A stretch of DNA of 64,000 nucleotides, from positions 8,837,598 to 8,901,597 of the forward strand of contig NC_135560.1 of the NCBI RefSeq assembly GCF_964340395.1. Reading direction: 5' to 3'. Below, piece after piece: positions 3,759 to 60,100 of the stretch. The notes below the pieces were generated by a model that was not told where the DNA came from, made no database searches, and saw only the letters and a program-made list of their open reading frames with translations. A program made the translations under genes and the position numbers. This stretch comes from Glandiceps talaboti. Taxonomy: Eukaryota; Hemichordata; Enteropneusta; Spengelidae. Within the stretch, counting starts at the first letter, position 1. Every line of letters starts with the position of its first letter.

Positions 3759-4232
3759 TTTGATATGTACATATTTGTCTATTTTTTATATCTGGTGAAA
3801 TAAACAATTAAACATTTGATATGTACATATTTGTCTTTTTATATTTGGTGAAATATACATATTTGATATTTGTCTCTATGTATCTGGTGAAATAAATAAT
3901 TCAACATTTGTTATGTACATATTTGTCTTTTTTTTTTACATCTGGTTAAATAAACAATGGAACGTTTGATATGTACATATTTGCCTTTTTTACATCTGGT
4001 TAAATAAACAATTCAATATTTGATATGTACATATTTGTCTTTTTTACATCTGGTTAAATAAACAATTGAATATTTGATAAGTACATATTTGTCTTTTTGA
4101 CATCTGGTTAAATAAACAATTGAACATTTGATTTGCCTTTTTTTTTACATCTAGTGAAAAGAACAATTGAAAATTTGATATGTACATATTTGCCTTTTTT
4201 ATATCTGGTGAAATAAACAATTGAACATTTGT
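3759..4232. repeat. minisatellite, about 60-68-bp unit, about 8 copies
   Basis: The repeated unit contains TTTGATATGTACATATTTGT, a T-run, then CATCTGGTTAAATAAACAAT or CATCTGGTGAAATAAACAAT. Copies vary mainly in the length of the T-run. The overlapping minus-strand open frames in this interval are products of the repeat and not genes. Confidence 0.85.
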
Positions 4233-10139: not shown

Positions 10140-10450
10140 ATTGACAATATTTCACTACTTAGATCTGGGTCTATAGTTACATTGTACCACATAGATTTAG
10201 GTCTATTCACTATATAGATTTGGGTCTACAGTTACAATACACATTTGGGTCTATTCACTACATAGATTTGGTTCTATAGTTACCACATAGATTTGGGTCT
10301 ATAGTTACCATACAGATTGGGTGTGGTAAATCTAGTCCCAAATCTACACAGTGAGTAGACCGACATAGCTTTGAGACTATATTTGCCACAAAGATTTGGG
10401 TTTTAATATTCACTATACAGATTTGGGGGTATATCTAACACAAAGATTTG
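10140..10450. repeat. minisatellite, about 22-44-bp unit
   Basis: Repeats of CATAGATTTGGGTCTATAGT with variants (CACAAAGATTTGGG, CATACAGATTGGG) run through the interval. One stretch near 10325-10350 is inverted (AAATCTAGTCCCAAATCT). Unit boundaries are ragged. Confidence 0.75.
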
Positions 10451-10849: not shown

Positions 10850-11715
10850 TTGGCTGAAATGTAACGGGGATACATTTGGGGGTGTATAGATGAAGAAATG
10901 TTAAGCATATAATGATCTCTTCAGCGATATGCAAATTGGGTGTAAATTTTGGTCAAAACTTACATACATTTGTACGTACATGTACAATTGTATATCTCAA
11001 AAAGTGCTTGGTCAATGAGACTGAAATTTGGTGGGATGTTTCTAGAAGTATTTTTCTGCAGGCTTTCTTCAAAACATTTTGATACCATTGGCCCTAGCAA
11101 CCATGACAACACCCTTAGCAACAACCAAATGCCAGTATATTTTGCTAAAATAACATCTGGTAGGCAAGTAAGCATTCAAAAAATGTATGCAAATATCCCT
11201 AGCAACCATAACCATGCCCATAGCAACAGCCAAACAGTTGTGTATTTCACAATAACAGGGATTCTTAGACAAGTGAACAATCATAAAGTGTATGCAAATG
11301 TACCTAGCAACAAGACCACACCCATAGCAACAGCCAAATGATCACATATATTGCAAAGATAACGGATTAATAAACAAATGAATAAAGTCAAAAAGTGCAT
11401 GCAAATTTACCTAGCAACAAGACCATGCCCATAGCAACAGCCATATGATGATGTATATCGCAAAGATAACATCTGGATTTCGTAGAAAAATGAACGAGCA
11501 TTCAAAAAATTATGCAAATATGTCTAGCAACATGACCACACCAATAGCAACAGCCAAATGATAACATATTGCAAAGATAACAACAGGGTAGGGATAGTCA
11601 ACTGGATCCGATAATCACTCAGGAAATAAACACCTATACATAGTATGGATCATTATGTGGATAAACATTTTTAAAAAACTGTACAGTTGTGCTACCATGC
11701 CATTAGCACTTGTTT
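10850..11715 (+). repeat. dispersed repeat with internal tandem modules
   Basis: This is the plus-oriented relative of 970-1490. It carries four to five modules of about 100-125 bp containing TATGCAAAT..(A/C)CTAGCAACAAGACC, CATAGCAACAGCCAAATGAT and TATTGCAAAGATAAC. The right end reads AATAAACACCTATACATAGT followed by CTGTACAGTTGTGCTACC, matching the other copy in inverse. The open frame at 10949-11341 comes from these modules. Confidence 0.7.
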
Positions 11716-14884: not shown

Positions 14885-15115
14885 GATGGCGCATATAACA
14901 AAAGGTAGATTTTACACCACATGGCGCATGTACAGGCAACAGACGGTAGATTTTACACCACATGGCGCATGTACAGGCAACAGAGGGTAAATTTTACAGC
15001 ACACCATCACGGCTCATATACAGGCATCAGAGGGTAGATTTTATACCACATGGCTCATATACAGGCAACAGGCAACAGACGATAGACTTTACACCACATG
15101 GCTCACGTACAGACA
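14885..15115. repeat. minisatellite, about 42-58-bp unit, five copies
   Basis: Units contain GGTAGATTTTACACCACATG followed by GCGCATGTACAGGCAACAGA or GCTCATATACAGGCA(A/T)CAGA. Copies differ by point changes and one short internal duplication (GGCAACAGGCAACAG). Confidence 0.85.
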
Positions 15116-16339
15116 ATAATTATGTTACAAAGACATGAAAGATATGAATGAATCTGATAAAATCAGATGATAAGTACTTGACTTGTTTTATTTACTGTAT
15201 TTCACTTTTACTGTGTTTGTTCTTGATATTTTGTTTTGTTTTTATGGTGGATGACCAGTCTTCTCTGTCAAACACAAAGGACTTGAAATATACAGTAGTC
15301 ACATGGTAAAGAAGTCAAATAATGTCTTCTGGATGTAAATTAACAACTATAAAGAATCATTTTCATTATCACCAAACTATAGCTACATTCATTCCAGGAT
15401 AGGTATTTGTTTTATATCCTACTACACATATGTACTACATTTGACACAAAAAACAAATGAATTCCCATTATACGCCATAGAGGGCAATATATCACTACAC
15501 TTGCTTGGATTCTGAGGACTGTAGTTTATTTCCTGTTGTCCATATTTGCTTTAAATTCAGAATATGTGACAATTAATGCTACTGTTTAACCATTAAGATT
15601 TTGTTTTGCTTATTTCCTGGTTAACTTGTTTATAACCATAGCATCCTACACCAAGGGTGTCCACACTAAATTGGTTATAAGTTTATGGTGAACAAAACAA
15701 ATGCATCTACAACAAAGAAAAGTATTAATAAAAACTCACAAACATAACAGACATGAACAACAAAGTAAGTCGTTACACATCGTTGTCAATGACTCTATGC
15801 AATAAACAGTACAACACATTTTTCTGTATATAAAAGTCACTCATTTAAATATACATGTACTTAGAAAGAGTTACACCTAAGTCAATCTAAGTACAGGTAT
15901 CATGAAGGTCATAAAAGGCATGAGTAAAATTAGTTTTTGCGTAAAACCCCCCCACACACCCCACCCCCAACCGTCAGTCGAAATCGAACATTGTCCACAA
16001 AAACAAATTAAAAACTAAAGCTTGTCTCGCATTAATATATCGTTTGATTTGATTGATTTAGAAGTCACCTAAAAACGTTTTGTTTCTTCAAAATTTTGAG
16101 GAAAAACGTCATTTATATAACGAAATTTCGGGCTACGAATAACTGAATACGTTCATCACTTGCGTCTCTATGTTTATATATCTACCGACATCATGCATCA
16201 CGCCACGTGTTGCCGAACATTGCGATTTCTCAACTCAACCCCATCATTTAGGAATGTTACTGTACTGAGAAACATAAAAAATTAGTTGTTGTTTTAGAAT
16301 ATATAAAACAAATCCCGTTATTCGATGATATAAAAGTCA

Positions 16340-20040: not shown

Positions 20041-20500
20041 ACAGCTGATCTCGGTGAAAAGAGTTGTTACCTGGCCAATCACTGAGTTGTAACAGTTCAG
20101 TGGAACTATTTGTAGCCTGCCAATCACTGAATTGTAACAGTTCAGTGGAACTATTTGTAGCCTGCCAATCACTGAATTGTAACACTTAAGTGGAAATATT
20201 TGTAGCCTGCCAATCACTGAATTGTAACACTTAAGTGGAAAGAGTTCTAGCCTAGTCAATCACTGAGTTGTTACCTGGCCAATCACTGAGTTGTAACAGT
20301 TCAATGAACAAATTGGTAACATGGCCAATCACTGAATTGTATATCAGTTGAGTGGAAGAGTTGTACTGTCAGTCCCTGAACTGTAACAGTTTAGTGAAAG
20401 AGTTGTATCCTGGTCAATCACTAAGTTGTAACATTTCATTGTAAAAGTTGAATGGAAAGTGTTGTAGCCTGGCCCATCACAAATTGTAACAGTCAAAGAA
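20041..20500. repeat. minisatellite, about 57-bp unit, about 8 copies
   Basis: The unit contains CCTGCCAATCACTGAATTGT, AACAGTTCAGTGGAA and (C/A)TATTTGTAG. Copies toward the right are more diverged (GGTCAATCACTAAGTTGTAA). The minus-strand open frame across it repeats a CYNSVIG.LQI peptide and is a by-product of the array. Confidence 0.9.
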
Positions 20501-20954
20501 ACATATTGTACCTACAGCATGGCAGTCATATGATACATGGTGAAGTATCTCAACAAACACAAATTCTTCCTGCACAAGGCTAATATATCTCATCCTTAGG
20601 CTATATTGTAGTTTCCTATTGAATGATACACCAGACATATTGGTATAGTGTTATACTGGGAATGTGTCAGGTTAATTTCCTGCTGGAATAACAATCCCAG
20701 ACTTACAAGTATTGTACTCATAACCAACATGACAATACTAATAACGGTACTATATTATTATAGTACTTTTTGATGACTTTTAGTTGTTATCAACATTTAG
20801 CCTCTGTGATGCAAATCTAAATCCAAAATACTGACTGATTGGGGAATGCATGAAAAACCATAAAAATCAAACATGCAATCTTGCTATTTATTACGAATGT
20901 TCAATATGGCCTAGGGATAAATTCTCACTCAGTATGACTATCACTTTCGTTCAG

Positions 20955-21375
20955 CAGGGCTTGTGGAAAATTCTAAATGGTTCAGCATGGCCAGGGGAGA
21001 AATCTCAGTTTGGTTCCGAATGGCCATAGGAGAATCCTCAGTTTGGTTCAGCATGGCCATGAAAGAAATCTCACTGTGTCTCAGTTTGTTTCAGCATGGC
21101 CTAAGGAAAACTCAGTTTGGTTCGGTAGAACTCTCAATTTGGTTCAACATGGCCAGGGGAGAATTCTCAATTTGGTTCAGTATGGCAGAGAAGAACTCTC
21201 ACAATGGTTCAGCATGGCCTGGGGAGAACTCAGTTTGGTTCAGCAGGGCCTGGGGAGAACTCTCAATTTGGTTCAGCACAGGCTGGGGAGAACTCTCATA
21301 TTGGTTCAGCATGGCTGTGGAGAATTCTCAATTTGGTTCAGCACGGGCTGGGGAGAACACTCACCTCAAGACTGC
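20955..21375. repeat. minisatellite, about 32-33-bp unit, about 12 copies
   Basis: The unit is close to TTCAGCATGGCC(A/T)GGGGAGAA followed by (T/C)TCTCA(A/G)TTTGG. Because the unit is near 33 bp, two reading frames stay open for about 155 codons and give W-F-S-M-A type peptide repeats. There is no supporting ATG context, splice site or domain. Confidence 0.9.
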
Positions 21376-23866
21376 ACCTTGGTTCTTAAGCATAGCCTCA
21401 GGCCAGGAAGAGAAATGCTCCTTGATCTGAACAGTACAGTTCATACATTTGAGTGGTAACATGACAAGGAAAGGTTAAATAGCATTGTTTTCAGTTACAA
21501 TCTTTGGCCTATGAAATCATCACAAACATACATCACAAAAATACAATGCACTACATACATGTATGTTCCAAAGAACTACCGAGGGTATATGATATTTGAC
21601 CCCCAAGGACAGTGCACCATGGTGTCCACCATTCTCAACATGAGAAGGAGTCATCGTGTTTTTTTTAAAGTGAAAAGTTCACATAGTTATTAGATGAATG
21701 TATTTTTAAAACCATGATTTATTTGTTTATTACAACATATCATCTTTCACAATGCTAGCTGTAAAGTAAATGCAATGAAACTCTATACAGAACAGTACCA
21801 TAAAGTAATGTCCCTTGATGAGGCATGGCATGTAAAAGTGAAAATAAATAGCATTATACATACTGTCATCTTAATAGTCTTTTAATTGAACTAGTACATC
21901 TATAAATTATTCCAACAGGAAATTAACTTTTACTTCACTGAAATTGTCAGTACTTTCTAGAATTCAATCTAAAATATTATACTGCAACAATAACGAAAAA
22001 TGAACTTATCATTTGTGTACTTATGAACTGACTTTTTTTTTTAAAGAGAAGATTTAACTTTCATATTTTTCAATTTTGTACATTTGAAGACTGGCACACA
22101 TAACGTGATTAGTTTTTGTTACACAACCAAGGGTTTTTATTACTAATAACTAATGAATAACAGTTCACATGTTCAGGTTGACGGGCTTTCTCAAACTGTC
22201 TGTTTTCCTGGCTTTACCATTATAATTTACCGACCAAAGAACGTTACACTGTAAGATACAAATGTACACTGTTTTGTGCAGCCCTATCAGGCTTCTAAAC
22301 GACATAAGTGTTTGCTGATAGCCATGACACTAATGTTGTATCTTACAGACTGGATGACCATATGTATAAGGGATAGAACACATAAAACTGAACTTACTGA
22401 GTACATTTGCACCAATGATAACTGAATGTGTGAATATCAAAATTAGGAAATAGCTGTAGATTATTTCATTTTATCAGTATACCTTAAACTAGATTTTATT
22501 GTACTTTTGCATAATGTAAAAAAAAAAATACGACAAAATATCTCATACTTATTATAATGGCCCCCAGTTGGATTAGGATTATAATCCAAGAATGAAAACA
22601 GTTTTCTGACAAAGCCGTAGAAAAGTTAGCCTGAAAGATCCAGGCGTTCCATCCACTTATATAATGCGTTCTGTCTGGGATAGTGAGTGGTTAATTAAGC
22701 AAACCAACAGCTGGACCTTTCAGATTTAGAAAAGTTGGTCCTACAAAACAGAATGGTCCTATGCAATCCATATGGCTTCACTGATAAAGATAACACTACA
22801 TACAATGTATGTGAGAACCTGAGATTGAATCCCCAGAGGTCGCGGCCACTTTTTTTTTCCCTAACCTTCAATACTCTAAGTGGTTCACCCGCTTCTTTAT
22901 AAACTATACTTTTCACTTATAATTTCCAAACAATATCTTTTAATACTTATTTTGATTATGTACAGTGCTTCATTTACCGTCTGATTCTGGATCCTATCCT
23001 ACACTCTTTTTTTTTCATGTTTTGAAAGTGGTGGAAAGGATCTAGGAACACATGGCATTTTTGTCAATATTTAGGTTAAACTTTTAAATGCACTGCTTGC
23101 AAATAAAATAAACAGTTTAAAGTTTCCAGTTCAACTCATCAGGACCTTTGAGTGAAGTCTGACTAAAATATTGCATGCTTTGTATCAACACATCACCAAC
23201 GCTAATATAAACACTATTCTCTAGATCCTAAATCTGTAAAAATCTGTTGTAGAAATACAGCTGGATTACTTTTGTTATTCACCTCTTTCCTTTATATATT
23301 GTCATTTCTGTTTTATTTTTGGTTTATTTTTTTGTTTCAAGAGAGTATGCTAATTCCTATGTACAAAGAGACATTTACTACGGGAACAAAAAAATCAAAA
23401 CTGGACAATAATAAGCTATATTCCTATAACAGATACAGATTCCTTTTACACATGTACTTTCATATCATAACATATAGTTGGACTATAATGACTATATCTT
23501 GATATGATGGCCATACTCTTATCTGGTCATATACACAGTGTACATCATTTTATTTCATGTTATTTCATTTTTTTACATTATTTTATCTCATTTTATTTTT
23601 TTATTTTACATCCTGTCCTGTCTTTTTTTTACTGGCTAGGATGTTATGCTAGCATTTGTTGTACAGCCTGGCCTGTTTGGGGAAATTATAACCACCCACT
23701 ACAGAATATGATCAATAAATGAGTTTTTAATATTGCTTGAGAAGAGAATAATGACTGTTGGTAATCTTTCGATGATCAATATTAGAACTTTCAAACTTTA
23801 TCATACTATACACATAGTCTGTCTATTACATGTATTATATTTTGTTGTATTTTGTTGTATTTTGTT

Positions 23867-29691: not shown

Positions 29692-29761
<70 letters not shown>

Positions 29762-29800
29762 ACACACACACACACACATTTCACCTATCTATGCCTATCT
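29400..29800. repeat. partial dispersed repeat ending in a CA microsatellite
   Basis: ACACCAATAGCATTGTAGCACAAC resembles the GCGCCAATGGCGTTGTAGCACAAC block of the 970-1490 repeat. A long (CA)n tract with one CATA interruption runs from about 29691 to 29779. The shared microsatellite position at the end of two copies suggests it is part of the element. Confidence 0.55.
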
Positions 29801-38500: not shown

Positions 38501-40193
38501 TAATGATTTCTGAATTACTTTTTAGGGCAGGAGAGTAAGAGTATTTTACTAGTGCATAATATGATAGTTACAGCAATAGCGGCTCTTCGTCAATTTATCC
38601 TTTCTAAAATTCTGTAGCTAGCCCCTCAGCTTCACTGGTCACGTCACAGACCTCAAGACTGTTGTAGGGTCCATTTCTCCCCATTTCGTTGGTTTCTAAG
38701 GTAAACTGCAAAGTCGAAATATATCTTCTAGGATGTGCACCATCTCAGATTCAGAATACCATTTGCCTTTACTTGGTCTTGATCATGTCTGTCTGGACTT
38801 GTACCAACACTATAGGTGAAGTTTCATTGATAGATCTGATATACGATGGATGGCACACATATCACTTATGCTGAATTGGCCATATGATTGATGTACATGC
38901 AGTTGATTGAATCAAATTTTCTGCATAGTTGTACCTGTGTGGTTTGTCATGGTAAAGCCTTGTACAGGCAAGCAATGTGTGTTGTATATTAGGTGTATAT
39001 GCACTGCATGTTAGGTGTGCACATTTTGTAGTTGTTCGTAAGTGTTTGACATAGAAAGGCCATATCTATGCAAGCAATACGCACTGCAGTGTATATTGGG
39101 TGTGCACATTTTGTAGTTGTTCCCAAGTGTTTGACATAGAAAGGCCATATCTATGCAAGCAATCTACACTGTATGTTGGGTGTGCACACTTTGTAGTTGT
39201 TCTCAGGTGTGTTTGTCGTAGAAAAGCCATATATATGCAAGCAATGTGCACTGTATGTTGGGTGTGCACACTTTGTAGTTGTTCCCTCTTTATTTGCCAT
39301 GGAAGAGCCACATATATGCAAACACCATGTATTGTACGTTAGCTGAGCACACTTCATAATTGTTCCTAAGTATGTTTGTCATGGAAAAGCCATGTATATG
39401 CAAACAATGTGCACTTTGTAGTTGTTCTCAGGTGTGTTTGTCATAGAAAAGCCATATAATGCCTGTAATGTGTGTTGTACTTTGGGTGTACACATTTTGT
39501 AATTGTTCCCAAGTGTTTGACATAAAAAAGCCATACATGTATATATATGCAAGCAATATGCACTTTACGTTAGGTGTCCGCACTTCTTAGTTGTTCCAAG
39601 TGTGTTAGCCGTGGAACAGCCATATATATGCAAACACCAAGTGTTTGTCATGGAAGAGCCATATAATGGCAACAATATGTGTTGTGTGTTACATGTGTAC
39701 ACTTTCTAGTTGTTCCCAAGTGTGTTTGTCATGGAAAAGCCATATATATGCAAACACTGTGTGCTGTACATTAGGTGTGCCCACTTCCTAATTGTTCCCG
39801 AATGTGTTGGCCATGGAAAAGCCTTATATATGCAAACACTGTGTGCTCATTTCCCAGTTGTTCCCAAATGTGTTTGCAATGGAAAAGCCATATGTATGCA
39901 ATGTGCACTGTAGTGTATGTTATGTGTGCATATTTCCTAGTAGTCATACCCTTTGGGCCAAGTGTGTTGTTTGTCATGGAAGAACGAAATATATGCATTA
40001 AGTGCACTGATAGTGTTATGTGATGTTTAGAGTTTGTCAGGAACAAGCTAATAGAGTAATATTCAATTTCAGAAGCAATGTAACAATATCCCCATGTAGT
40101 CTGCACATCATAACAATTATCTCATTATTTTCTTGTTTGCAGGCAACCTTAGAGAGTGAAATATTGAAGGGTATCAACCTACTGACACCATAG
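32587..40193 (+). CDS. HAUS1: HAUS augmin-like complex subunit 1 (complete, 8 exons)
   Basis: HAUS1 is a coiled-coil subunit of augmin, which docks on spindle microtubules and recruits gamma-tubulin to nucleate branches. Exons: 32587-32616, 33152-33326, 33781-33913, 34982-35116, 36310-36433, 37412-37477, 38337-38456 and 40143-40193. All introns are GT-AG and all junctions keep frame, giving 277 residues against 278 in human. Family marks are VPQYEINTKTV near residue 21-31, the DDLNQKAAEY block near 57, SGVDASIYHDSLL near 205, and the best conserved stretch PADPSLAQVKVEEAKKEL near 242-260. The protein is predicted almost entirely helical, with an acidic-basic linker (EEKSEDEEPKLKQK) in exon 5. 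The start codon lies in exon 1 after an upstream ATG-TTT-TGA micro-ORF. The third intron holds a foldback and the last intron a large minisatellite. Identification is by remembered family similarity over the full length. Confidence 0.95.
34106..34240. mobile_element. foldback element in HAUS1 intron 3
   Basis: TATTGTCAGGGGTGCACTAC on the left pairs with GTAGTACACCCCTGACAATA on the right. The flanks CTGACG and CTGAGG may be a weak duplication. Confidence 0.65.
35160..35445. mobile_element. foldback element in HAUS1 intron 4
   Basis: The ends CTGTTTGATACAA and TTGTATCAAACAG are perfect complements. Pairing resumes inward at AAGAAACTATACATGCTACA and TGTAGAATGTGCAGTTTCTT. No clear target duplication. 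Confidence 0.65.
37970..38128. mobile_element. short inverted-repeat element in HAUS1 intron 6
   Basis: AAGCAGTGTTCTCT on the left pairs with AGAGAACACTGCTT on the right; the interior is unpaired. Could be a solo MITE or a chance pair. Confidence 0.45.
38960..40020. repeat. minisatellite, about 70-90-bp unit, about 11 copies, in HAUS1 intron 7
   Basis: The units contain GTGTGCACA(C/T)TTTGTAGTTG, TTCCCAAGTGTGTTTGTCAT, GGAAAAGCCATATATATGCA and AGCAATGTGCACTGTATGTT. Copies differ by substitutions and whole-module losses. Several paired open frames on both strands here are by-products. It ends about 120 bp before the last HAUS1 exon. Confidence 0.9.

Positions 40194-49141: not shown

Positions 49142-49228
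<87 letters not shown>
49142..49228 (+). repeat. (GT)n microsatellite
   Basis: About 43 perfect GT units. All overlapping Cys-Val and His-Thr reading frames are artefacts of it. Confidence 0.97.
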
Positions 49229-49232
<4 letters not shown>

Positions 49233-54100: not shown

Positions 54101-57100
54101 CTGGTAATTTAGCCTTCGGTTTTCTAAGATAGACACAAACTATAACAATTGTTGTAACATGTTGATACAACAGTGATAAGCTATTGAATAGACATTGGTT
54201 TGATTATAATCTCAGTAGGGTGACATCACAGAGTTTTATTGACAGAGTTCTATTAACTTGCAGTGTACTGTTTTAGGACTTCCAATGGTTACACTATCTT
54301 GATTACTGGGTGATTAGAATCACACAACAGAAGAACTACTATCACCTACTTGTGTAGTCTACCACATTGAAGAACAATAGATTTAGTTTGTGTCTATCTT
54401 AGTAAACCGAAGGCTGGATTACCAGAGTCGTATGTTAGTCTCTCGAAACCTCACTCTGACATGTATGATAAGTTTGAAAATTTGATTGTACTTTCAAACA
54501 GTTTAGTTAATTATAGTGTAAGAACAAAGTTGTGTGTACATTGTTGTTGTAAAAAGAACTAGCGCAAAAATGTAAATATCAGGTTTTGCTAACTTTGAGG
54601 CAAATCATTGCTGAAGCAGAAGGAAAGCATTGAAGTCAGAATGCTTAGATTCTAGGTTAAGATTTTGACCACAGGTGAGTTTGTTTTTCACCACAGTTGC
54701 ACTAGCCCGTTACAAATGTACACACAAATTGTACCATCATTGTCTTCAAATCATAACAAATCACTACCCCTGGTATATTACTCACATCAGCTGTAGTTGT
54801 GTTATACAGGTCTATCAGTTTGTCATTGTACAACTCTAACATGTAACTGGATACCGTAAAAGAATACTTCTTCCTGAAAAAAACAAACAAACAGACAGAT
54901 TGAGCCACACAATGTTGCCTCTCGTAATTTGAATTTCAGTATTTTCACCATTTCTAGCTCATAAAATAATTTGTATAAATTTTGCTGATAAAACAGTACT
55001 TTCATATTGCTGGCCAACTCGTGGGTCAATTTGCTGGTCACTAAAATTGAGAATTTGTACATTTTTTTCATATATTGTTCAACCACTGAACATCTGACAA
55101 CAATGTTCAACCATTGAATAATGTATTTCTACTATCTCCCATGATGCAATAGCCCATAGCAAAGATACCCTATAAATGCACAAGATCAATTTGATGTTTC
55201 TCTGAAATCACAACTAATTGTAGGCCATGTAAAATCATGAAATGATTTTCCAGAACACATGTTTTATGAAAATGGCCCTATTTCCTGGATTGGTGATTCC
55301 CCTTTAAATATAAAATTAGGGAATATCACCAATGATATTCTGACTGTGAGTAACAATAATTCATATATGTACAGTTCAAAGCTTTACAAAAATAACTATT
55401 TTTGTTTTACCTGCAAGAACTGTCGTTTTAATTTCCCCTGGTGGGATGAATAAAGTAATTCTGATTCTGATTCTGAACTAGACTTACTTGTTTTCCTCCA
55501 CAAGATCAAATATTTGTTTGAATGCCCTTGGTGCGATACCTGGGAACTGTTGGCTGCTGTCTCCAATCATGGTAAATGTCTTACCAGATCCAGTTTGTCC
55601 ATAGGCAAATATACATACATTGTACCCATCAACGGCTGACTGAATCAGATTCTGTCAATAACAAGAAATACAAAATTATAAACAAATTTTGCTAAACATG
55701 GCCATTACTCATGATAGAGACACACGAACAACACTCCCTGGAGATCTGGTTGACTGACTGTAAACAGCATCCTCTAGAGATAAGATTGATATTTTTATGA
55801 ACAGCGCCCTCTAGCGATATGGTTGCCAGCCAGGTCTTGCAACTTGTTCTGTGTTAATTTGCAGTATCCATTTTTAAGTCTTGGTCAATAATTAATCCTT
55901 GAAAAGCAAGCACACACCTTTTCTTGAAATTCTGAGTTCTAAATTTTACTATGAGACTGAGAGAAGGATTGAGACATTCTGTATTTGTTTCAGGGTACCA
56001 CTTACATTGCTATCTTCAAACACCTTTTCTTGAGTTGATTCTGAAGTGAAAATTTGATCATACTGAAATTCCTTCGTACCACGACTGCTTGTCACCGATA
56101 TGGTATACTCATCAGGAGACTTGATCACCGAAAAGTTACCCTAGAAACAGAAAAAAATACCATAGTAACCAGAAACATAGGCAGTGATCATGGTTATGGT
56201 ATACTCATCAGGAGACTTGATCACTGAAAAGTTACCCTAGAAACAACAACAAAGTCCACAGTAACCAGAAACAAATGCAGTGATCATGATTAGGGTATAC
56301 TCATCAGGAGACTTGATCACTGAAAAGTTACCCTAGAAACAACAACAAGTCCATAGTAACCAGAACAAATGCAGTGATCATGGTTAGGGTATACTCATCA
56401 GGAGACTTGATCACTGAAAAGTTACCCTAGAAACAACAACAAGTCCATAGTAACCAGAACAAATGCAGTGATCATGGTTAGGGTATACTCATCAGGAGAC
56501 TTGATCACTGAAAAGTTACCCTAGAAACAACAACAAGTCCATAGTAACCAGAACAAATGCAGTGATCATGGTTAGGGTATACTCATCAGGAGACTTGATC
56601 ACTGAAAAGTTACTATAGAAACAACAAGTCCATAGTAACCAGAACAAATGCAGTGATCATGGTTAGGGTATACTCATCAGGAGACTTGATCACTGAAAAG
56701 TTACTATAGAAACAACAAGTCCATAGTAACCAGAACAAATGCAGTGATCATGGATATCATGGTATATTCATCACTGATAACATGACAACACATTATCACC
56801 ATGCACTGATCGTGTCAAAATAATATAACAAACTTTCACAAAGGCAAGAAAAGCATAACTTACTCTGCCTAATTCGTCTTTACTCAATGGTCTTGAACGG
56901 CAATATACACGGATTTTACCCTTCATATCTTCAACCATATTGTAGTATTTCTTTCTTAATACCTAGTACACAATGGAAAAGTTGAACAATGCATGATATA
57001 ATTTATTTATGTGTTACGTGCAAACATTACTATCTTAATGGTACACTTCAAACTCAAAATGGAGTAAAAAACTTTAAAAATGTAAAAGAAAATGTCTGCC

Positions 57101-60100
57101 TAACAGCAGAAGACAGTAAACTGTGCAGAAACACAGACAGCATGGATACAATTTGTTGCTTGTGCCAGTGTCTCTTGCAGAGGGTGGTTTATCAAACAGG
57201 TACTGCATGAAAGACAGCACATGCACATCTCTTTCAATTTTAACAGACAAAACAAAAACATGCATTATATCATGATTGTACACTACATACAACTGCTGAC
57301 ATCAGATTGTGGATGAACAGAACCTGTTACAAACAGGGCAAGTAAAGAACTTATTTACTTTCCTTGTTTGTTACAGGTTCCATTTGTCCACGGTCTGATG
57401 TCAGCAGTTGTATGAACTATACCATGCAGACACATGCAATAAATCTATTCTTAACAACTGTATTACAATGTACATGAATCACCCTTTGCAAAAGAGAGAC
57501 ACAAGCAACAAATGTATCTGTTCTGACTTTTGTTTCTGCACAGCTTACTTTCTGCAGCTGTATTAAATCAATCTATCCATAAGTACTCAGATTGAAATTT
57601 AAGATCAGTACATATGTACATGCATGTACATTATACACAAGAGACTTACTCTTTCACTGTTCCAATTGTCTGTCAGTGATTTGTTTTCAGAATTCAGTTT
57701 CTTGACCTCAGCTTCCAGTGATGTCACTTTCTCAGCTGCAGCTATACCTTCTTTAGCAGCAACACCCAGTGCTGCCAACTCACCATCTAGTTTTTTGGTC
57801 TGTTCTTGGGCTACAGATAACTCCTGGGGTTTTTTTTCAAATCAAATTTTGCACACATTAGCATTGATGGAAACATGAACAGAGTTACAAGAGGATATGG
57901 CATTTAAAAATAATTTTAGTTTTTATATAGTGCTTCCCACACAATGCTCAAATCACATTCAATTCACAGTTATTACCCCTGGGCATGAACCTATAATAGC
58001 ACATCAATTACTTCAGCCCTTTATAGTTCAACTCCCTGGGGAACATACAATCCATTGCAGCCTCTAAAAATACATAGGATTAAAGCATTCACATTGCACC
58101 CTCTATCCTACCAGGTTTCCAATTATGCGGCTGGGTTGATATCGTAGTTCAAATCTTGTCTAAATAATTTAAGGATTCAGAAACGAATGGCAGTAGTGAG
58201 GCTTTGACTGGCAACTTGCAGATTCCAAGACATCCACTCTAACCATTCAACCATCATGACCCCAAAGTGCAGTTTAAATCATATCAAATTCTATCAAATT
58301 CTCTATGTGACACCTAAAAATAATTTTTCTTGCAAAGTTAATAAAAGACAACATTTAAACATGTATATCCTTATGTTCTATTATACCATGCACAAGCCAG
58401 GTTCAACAAAAAATATGGAATATACAGTCTGGTCGTTGTACGTCACGACAACGTGCATGACAAGTCAAAACACCCAAAATTGTTATTACTTTCCCTGATT
58501 TTTCTTTGATATTACTGGTGCTGGTATAATTATGTTACTCTCCAATACTTTTCTTCATTCAGCCAGAAAATACTCGTGACCTAAGGGTTGTCACTACGAG
58601 TTGGTTGACGAGTAGAGACAAAGGCCCCTTAAGTCACTCGTATTTTCCTTGGCTGAACAAAGAAAAATATTGCGGACTAACATCAAATTTCTTAATTTTC
58701 TTTCATTAGGTTCTTATTAGATTACTTACTTTCTTCAGTGCAGTTAGTTCTTCATCTAACTCATTAGCTCGTTTCTGCTCCCTTTCAAACTTCTTTTTCT
58801 CTATTTCCAGTTTTTTCTCCAACTCTTTAAGTTGTTTATCTGCTTTCTTTGCACTTTTCTGAAAGTGACAAGAAGTCATTGGTAAAAAGGTGCCATCAGA
58901 TGATCAAAGTTGGTGACGAGGTCCACGGAAACACATATTGAAATAACATCAATCTTGAGTCTGAAGGCTAAATTTTTTTTACAATATTTTATCCTGGATC
59001 CTTTTCTGGAGTAAAATCCTGGCACTTTAACAGTTTTTTTGAATATTTCTATAAATTGGCTAAGGTTTTCCTTATCTTTTTTTGAGTGTAGGTATTCACA
59101 CTGTTCAACATCACTTCAAAGTTAAGTCTCCTTGTGGCCACTTTCATTAACAACACAAAATGTTTACCGCAACTGATTTCCTTTCCCTTCCAAATTATGG
59201 TTCAGAACCCTTTGAGAGGTATAACTACCTTGGTGTCAAATATTTTCCATCAAGTGCACATTACTGATATTATGTTCCTTGGTGAAAACACAAAGTTTGG
59301 TTAAAATTCAATAATTTTCTGACAACTTCATTCCACAGTCATTGTACTTACATCTTGTGAGGCAGCCACTCTAGCCTCCTTGGCATCTTTTTCAAACTGT
59401 TTTATCTTATCCTGATCTTCCCGTATCTGTTTTTTCATCGCTGTCACTTGTTCCTGTAATTTCTTCACTTTAACATCATCAGCAGCACCAGACTGTGTTA
59501 TAAATTACAACAGAATTACAAACTAGAAATGAGAATGCTTGACTCAAAATTTCACAAAGATGGCTGATTCTGTTGTTTACTATCTATTGTATTACGATGA
59601 CCATCGATCCTTTCAAACTATATCAATTTCAATATATCCCTTTGAAAGTATATTTAACATGCCACAATCAGGGATGTCACTAATTTCAAAACTAGTCAGT
59701 TAAGTGAGCAAAGCAGATGGTAACATCTGTGAATGAGACCCATGAAAACTGCCCATCAGTGGTGGAAACAAAGAATCTTTAAACAAATTTTTAAAAAAGT
59801 AGCCGGCAAAACACTGCTGAGAAGGCGGTTGGTTTTGCTGGCTACCGGCCTTTATCTAGATCCCCGGCTATTTGCTGGGAGTAATTCAAGGCACAATTCT
59901 TTTTTTAAATAAAAAAAATTTACAATTTTTTTTTTCAAATTTACAAAAAAATGAAAAAAAATACAATAAAAAAAGAAGAAGAACTAATTACCAACCTGGT
60001 GAACATATTTACGGATATATAAATAATTTTATTTTTTACCTTGGCACCTCTGGCAGCAGCTGTACCTCCAGCAGCAACAGCAACTTGTAACTCTTTGACT

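Follow-up and report, generated by a model that had tools for sequence, protein, structure and literature searches.

A ladder of decoy 3′ splice sites in a kinesin intron, probably a mirage minisatellite without present function

How does a gene come to carry a ladder of near-identical 3′ splice sites in front of one of its own exons, and does the ladder do anything? The question is raised by a stretch of 64,000 nucleotides from contig NC_135560.1 (positions 8,837,598 to 8,901,597; hereafter the window), whose minus strand holds a kinesin gene. A first-pass annotation had reported six copies of an exon edge upstream of exon 10 (window numbering), and repeat detection, motif positions and shuffled controls bear this out. 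We think it very probable, judging from the sequence, that the array is a 'mirage' minisatellite of the type described in lancelets, that it was begun by unequal exchange and is tolerated in the intron, that productive mRNA is made from the true acceptor (a7), and that the array has no present function.

The units are of minisatellite size and stand in tandem. Tandem Repeats Finder (TRF) gives a period of 94 bp, 7.0 copies and 96% matches over 56102-56753. Each of the six units combines a 3′ splice site with 38-39 bp from the start of exon 10. The intron part of the unit is present in seven copies, and so is the exon part, whose last copy belongs to the real exon itself. It is located where it had been placed, with its upstream end at about 56754 and not at 56745. 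The motif of acceptor plus exon start is found seven times, in the six units and at the exon (starts 56705, 56614, 56520, 56426, 56332, 56236 and 56140), with spacings from the distal end towards the exon of 91, 94, 94, 94, 96 and 96 bp. This count of seven acceptor motifs agrees with the proposed ladder of acceptors ahead of the true exon. The 20-mer GTAACTTTTCAGTGATCAAG, allowing up to 3 mismatches, has seven matches in the window and none in 100 shuffles, which rules out chance as the origin of the array.

The unit crosses the intron-exon boundary of a real gene. A 38-bp core, GTAACTTTTCAGTGATCAAGTCTCCTGATGAGTATACC, is identical in all six units and differs from the exon by a single base (TCA vs TCG, both serine), so the claimed homology of the units to the exon start holds. 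When the 33 splice edges of the gene were compared with the window by BLAST, neighbouring copies were found for the exon 10 acceptor only; two other edges have one extra match of 18-20 bp each, one of these being to the edge's own stretch on the opposite strand. An exact 25-mer of the unit has no match in viral contigs.

Is the exon, and not the array, the original? The minus-strand gene encodes a coiled coil and a C-terminal motor and spans at least 63.3 kb to about 51.15 kb of the window. Its protein matches the Pfam families Kinesin and Microtub_bd, and the protein of exons 9-11 has as its closest known structures the plant KCBP kinesins 3h4s (E 2.1e-38) and 1sdm (E 3.1e-35). On these matches the gene is a kinesin-14 of the KCBP type. 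Its splice sites were assigned manually (17 acceptors and 16 donors), including the exon 10 donor AAT/gtaagt and the acceptor a7, with its AG at 56142-56141. The protein join of exons 9 and 10 (...DELGR followed by the next exon; join made by hand) aligns to KCBP without a gap, and 56140 is therefore most likely the correct exon edge. The start of exon 10 is colinear with the KCBP kinesins, which makes the exon the likelier source of the copied sequence, as the annotation had argued. The coordinates are collected in Table 1.

Table 1. The repeat array and its neighbouring exons, in window coordinates
Feature	Position	Strand	Remarks
Exon 9, upstream	56864..56962	-	codes 33 residues; donor AGA/gtaagt; intron from 56863
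15-bp near-match (14/15) to exon 56114-56100	56759..56773	-	candidate homology for first unequal exchange
Seventh copy, intron part alone	56706..56754	-	leads to decoy acceptor a1 (TATAG)
Unit u1, 91 bp	56615..56705	-	tail leads to decoy acceptor a2 (TATAG)
Unit u2, 94 bp, first base differs from u3/u4	56521..56614	-	tail is decoy acceptor a3
Unit u3, 94 bp, identical to u4	56427..56520	-	tail is decoy acceptor a4
Unit u4, 94 bp	56333..56426	-	tail is decoy acceptor a5
Unit u5, 96 bp	56237..56332	-	tail is decoy acceptor a6
Unit u6, 96 bp	56141..56236	-	tail is true 3′ splice site a7
Exon 10 (window numbering), genuine	56006..56140	-	135 bp, phase 0; colinear with KCBP; Pfam Kinesin

The array also holds hints of how it arose. 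Its middle units are homogeneous (u3 equals u4, and u2 is one base off), and the intron part diverges most in u6. At the joint of exon and intron it is u6, reading ATACCATAACC, that is closest to the exon (ATACCATATC), and u1-u5 carry ATACCCTAA. Directly ahead of the array the intron reads TGATGAATATACCAT, which matches the exon stretch TGATGAGTATACCAT at 14 of 15 positions, a level equalled in 3 of 5000 shuffled sequences and in 3 of the 2413 controls drawn from the window; the intron continues with GATATCCATGATCAC and the exon with ATCGG. An exchange within this 15-bp stretch is predicted to produce ATACCATATCCATGATCAC, one base from u6. From this one sequence we infer that the exon-like intron TGATGAATATACCATGATATC may have misaligned with the exon TGATGAGTATACCATATC, so that unequal exchange would have joined exon to intron. 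Slippage or unequal exchange would next have expanded the short duplication across the intron-exon edge to seven copies, and the middle units would then have multiplied and become homogenised. An eighth, degenerate unit ahead of the array (56857-56754) was considered and rejected: its gapped alignment score of 32 was reached in 541 of 2000 shuffled sequences and in 73 of the 1207 controls from the window, and the score without the tail in 650 of 2000 shuffles, and only the short ungapped 15-bp match beats chance.

Five of the acceptors read TAGGG and the two farthest, a1 and a2, read TATAG, just as had been pointed out. The distal change from TTTCTAGG to TTTCTATAG had been put down to decay, which we find doubtful. 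The AG of the acceptor is retained at both sites, and the adjacent double change of GG to TA (from CTAGGGTAAC to CTATAGTAAC) completes a perfect 8-bp inverted repeat with GTTACTAT, the arms being separated by 15 bases. Of the 720 adjacent double changes that could occur in the 81-base stretch tested, 8 reach the same inverted-repeat score. The two sites also have a 3-bp difference in common, therefore both probably stem from a single event. Template switching is the usual explanation for mutations by which the two arms of a quasi-palindrome gain in identity (PMC3820800). A templated mutation would explain the TATAG change at least as well as decay, and would be the more specific account.

What would become of a transcript spliced to a decoy? 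Frames were read from the exon 9 donor, with the intron starting at 56863. Direct use of a1 or a2 gives a TAA at the junction, and direct use of a3 (+380 nt) or a4 (+286 nt) gives a stop after 32 codons. Splicing to a5 (+192 nt) or a6 (+96 nt) keeps the frame, and translation would then run for 31 codons and end at the TAG that belongs to the following acceptor. Direct splicing to all six decoys is thus met by a premature stop, and presumably such transcripts would go to nonsense-mediated decay (NMD). The annotation had held that the 94-bp units are not a multiple of three and that combinations of units could restore the frame. The statement on length misses u5 and u6, which at 96 bp keep the frame; the idea of restoration is not supported for direct use of a decoy. 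Cassette exons, in which a decoy acceptor is paired with a GT in the array and followed by a7, are open through exon 11 in 10 of 181 combinations. The donors of these ten are poor, scoring at most -1.4 on a donor matrix, and none of the 14 cassettes that end at the best donor, G/GTAACT, is open. Frame-keeping cassette exons would be a possibility on paper only. Since all six decoys lead to an early stop when spliced directly, the repeat is probably harmless ballast, which would remain in the intron while a7, the last acceptor, makes the productive mRNA. We consider the array most likely neutral.

The strength of the splice sites favours a7, as far as sequence can tell, yet leaves room for decoy use. 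The pyrimidine run of a7 is the longest of the seven, at 9 against 5 in the decoys. With a matrix built from the other 16 acceptors of the gene, a7 scores 9.9 vs 2.2-3.9 for the decoys, and with a general matrix 10.8 vs 5.2-9.1. That said, several observations count against a neutral array read through to a7. Genuine acceptors score under the best decoys (3.91) in 5 of 16 cases. A branch-like CTAAC/CTAAT motif lies 51-54 nt upstream in a2-a6 and is absent from a7; CTGAT is found at 68 nt in a7 and at 65-68 nt in a2-a6. The AG-free stretch of a2-a6, at 60-63 nt, is similar to that of a7, and in a1 it reaches 70 nt. A donor-like AGG/GTAACT adjoins every TAGGG acceptor and scores 2.9 on the donor matrix, above 3 of the 16 real donors. 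The decoys a2-a6 may, on these features, compete with a7. As for the origin by unequal exchange, the 15-bp junction test was picked only after the match had been noticed.

Could the ladder be a regulator? Some of the pre-mRNA would then be spliced to decoys, stopped and destroyed, so that copy number tunes the output of kinesin. This draws on the acceptor AG, AG-free stretch and branch-like motif that each of a2-a6 possesses and on the early stops behind all six decoys, and on the intronic variable number tandem repeat (VNTR) of ABCA7, where exon skipping and reduced expression go along with repeat length (PMC5954066). However, TAG acceptors in a phase-0 intron give premature stops anyway, the pyrimidine tracts of the decoys are weaker than that of a7, and the lancelet mirages are reported to be spliced as normal (PMC3087553, PMC3902484). 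We regard such regulation as very improbable. The same goes for its wider form, a copy-number-dependent dial in which six of seven competing 3′ splice sites lead to a stop and decay, in arrays that would also occur outside lancelets and make expression vary there. A real genome with fewer units, expanded by an assembly artefact, seems to us the least probable alternative of all. The identical u3 and u4 are a hard case for an assembler, and a lancelet mirage came out wrong in one draft assembly (PMC3087553), but there are five distinct sequences among the six units, which speaks for no fewer than five real ones, barring errors or allelic differences.

Another thought is that local RNA hairpins, under selection, mask the decoy acceptors. 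In predicted folds the AG of a1-a5 is unpaired at 0.07 or less in all six contexts, where the medians of the 16 other acceptors are 0.32-0.45, and the stretch of a1-a2 folds better than all of 200 shuffles. This idea came post hoc, though, and the near-identical units count as roughly two independent cases. Folding at least as good was seen in 16 of 200 shuffles for single-unit stretches and in 31 of 200 for the a6-a7 stretch. Decoy a6 is predicted to be as open as a7 (both 0.03-0.70 unpaired, inside the range of other sites), and 3 of the 16 genuine sites are likewise unpaired at 0.16 or less in all six contexts. Reverting the junction base does not open a3-a5 (0.03), and a6 becomes buried through 41 of the 384 single changes made around it. 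These two controls indicate that a buried state is easily reached by chance, which weakens the case for masking; we would call it very unlikely.

A mirage array without present function remains our preferred reading, and its surroundings make it less surprising that one array should cross an exon edge, as the region is rich in minisatellites. There are eight other tandem arrays of at least 100 bp with units of at least 25 bp (TRF rows merged): 3882-4231, 10185-10322, 11176-11582, 14897-15116, 20061-20433, 20978-21363, 39000-39415 and 39641-39901. A 33-bp array, its unit a multiple of three, holds open a 169-aa frame at 20921-21430 (plus strand), which has no Pfam match and is probably a chance open frame. 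Seven more open stretches in the window, picked by eye from 203, gave no Pfam matches at E 0.01. Long CA/GT microsatellites are found at 29693-29778 (43 copies) and 49142-49232 (45.5 copies), with 97% matches. In a neighbouring intron of the kinesin gene, at 57275-57425, lies a near-perfect hairpin with 75-nt arms, 81% complementary and 1 nt apart, which is possibly a small inverted-repeat element. The GC content of the window is 34.6%, and 33-36% across 8-kb blocks. That of Branchiostoma is near 41%, and with its lower value the array may be a case from another lineage than the lancelets.

How does the kinesin array compare with other repeats at splice sites? It resembles human internal tandem repeats in being a minisatellite expansion at an exon-intron boundary; the novel introns there were inferred from transcripts of recent paralogs, unlike the kinesin array, which is seen in genomic sequence (PMC2812944). 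As in intron gain by tandem genomic duplication, a sequence that bears splice signals has been copied in tandem (PMC3443670), and as in NMD-sheltered intron gain, stops would route mis-spliced RNA to NMD (PMC2809761). In both of those cases, however, a new intron was made, whereas in the kinesin gene an existing one was probably lengthened; the hand-made join of exons 9 and 10 aligns to KCBP free of any insert. The ABCA7 VNTR is likewise an intronic tandem array with a splice site in its units, but these are of 25 bp, the site is a donor, and the effect on splicing was measured (PMC5954066).

The closest parallels are the lancelet mirage minisatellites, tandem arrays over an exon edge in Adh3, globin, TnC and PGBD5 genes (PMC3087553, PMC3902484). 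The PGBD5, Adh3 and TnC arrays share with ours the presence of splice sites inside tandem repeats, although the PGBD5 repeats, of 60 and 108 bp, are imperfect and overlap exons 3 and 4 (PMC3902484). Adh3 data and globin reverse transcription PCR suggest that lancelet mirages leave regular splicing undisturbed (PMC3087553), and PMC3902484 cites the Adh and TnC mirages as generating no aberrant mRNAs. Among the matches listed in the open-licence literature, no mirage is reported from a kinesin gene or from any group other than lancelets. Should the species prove not to be a lancelet, the array would show that mirages also occur beyond that group. The near-identical 3′ splice sites also form a clean natural series within one intron, useful for questions of spliceosome choice. 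The globin gene BflGb6 (PMC3087553) has the same layout, with 6 units in one haplotype; its units carry splice signals in many, not all, copies and evolve in concert within the cluster, edges excluded, a homogenised-middle pattern that the kinesin array repeats. Its unit, at 150-160 bp, is longer than the 91-96 bp found here, and its host is a globin gene where ours, seen in genomic sequence, is a kinesin.
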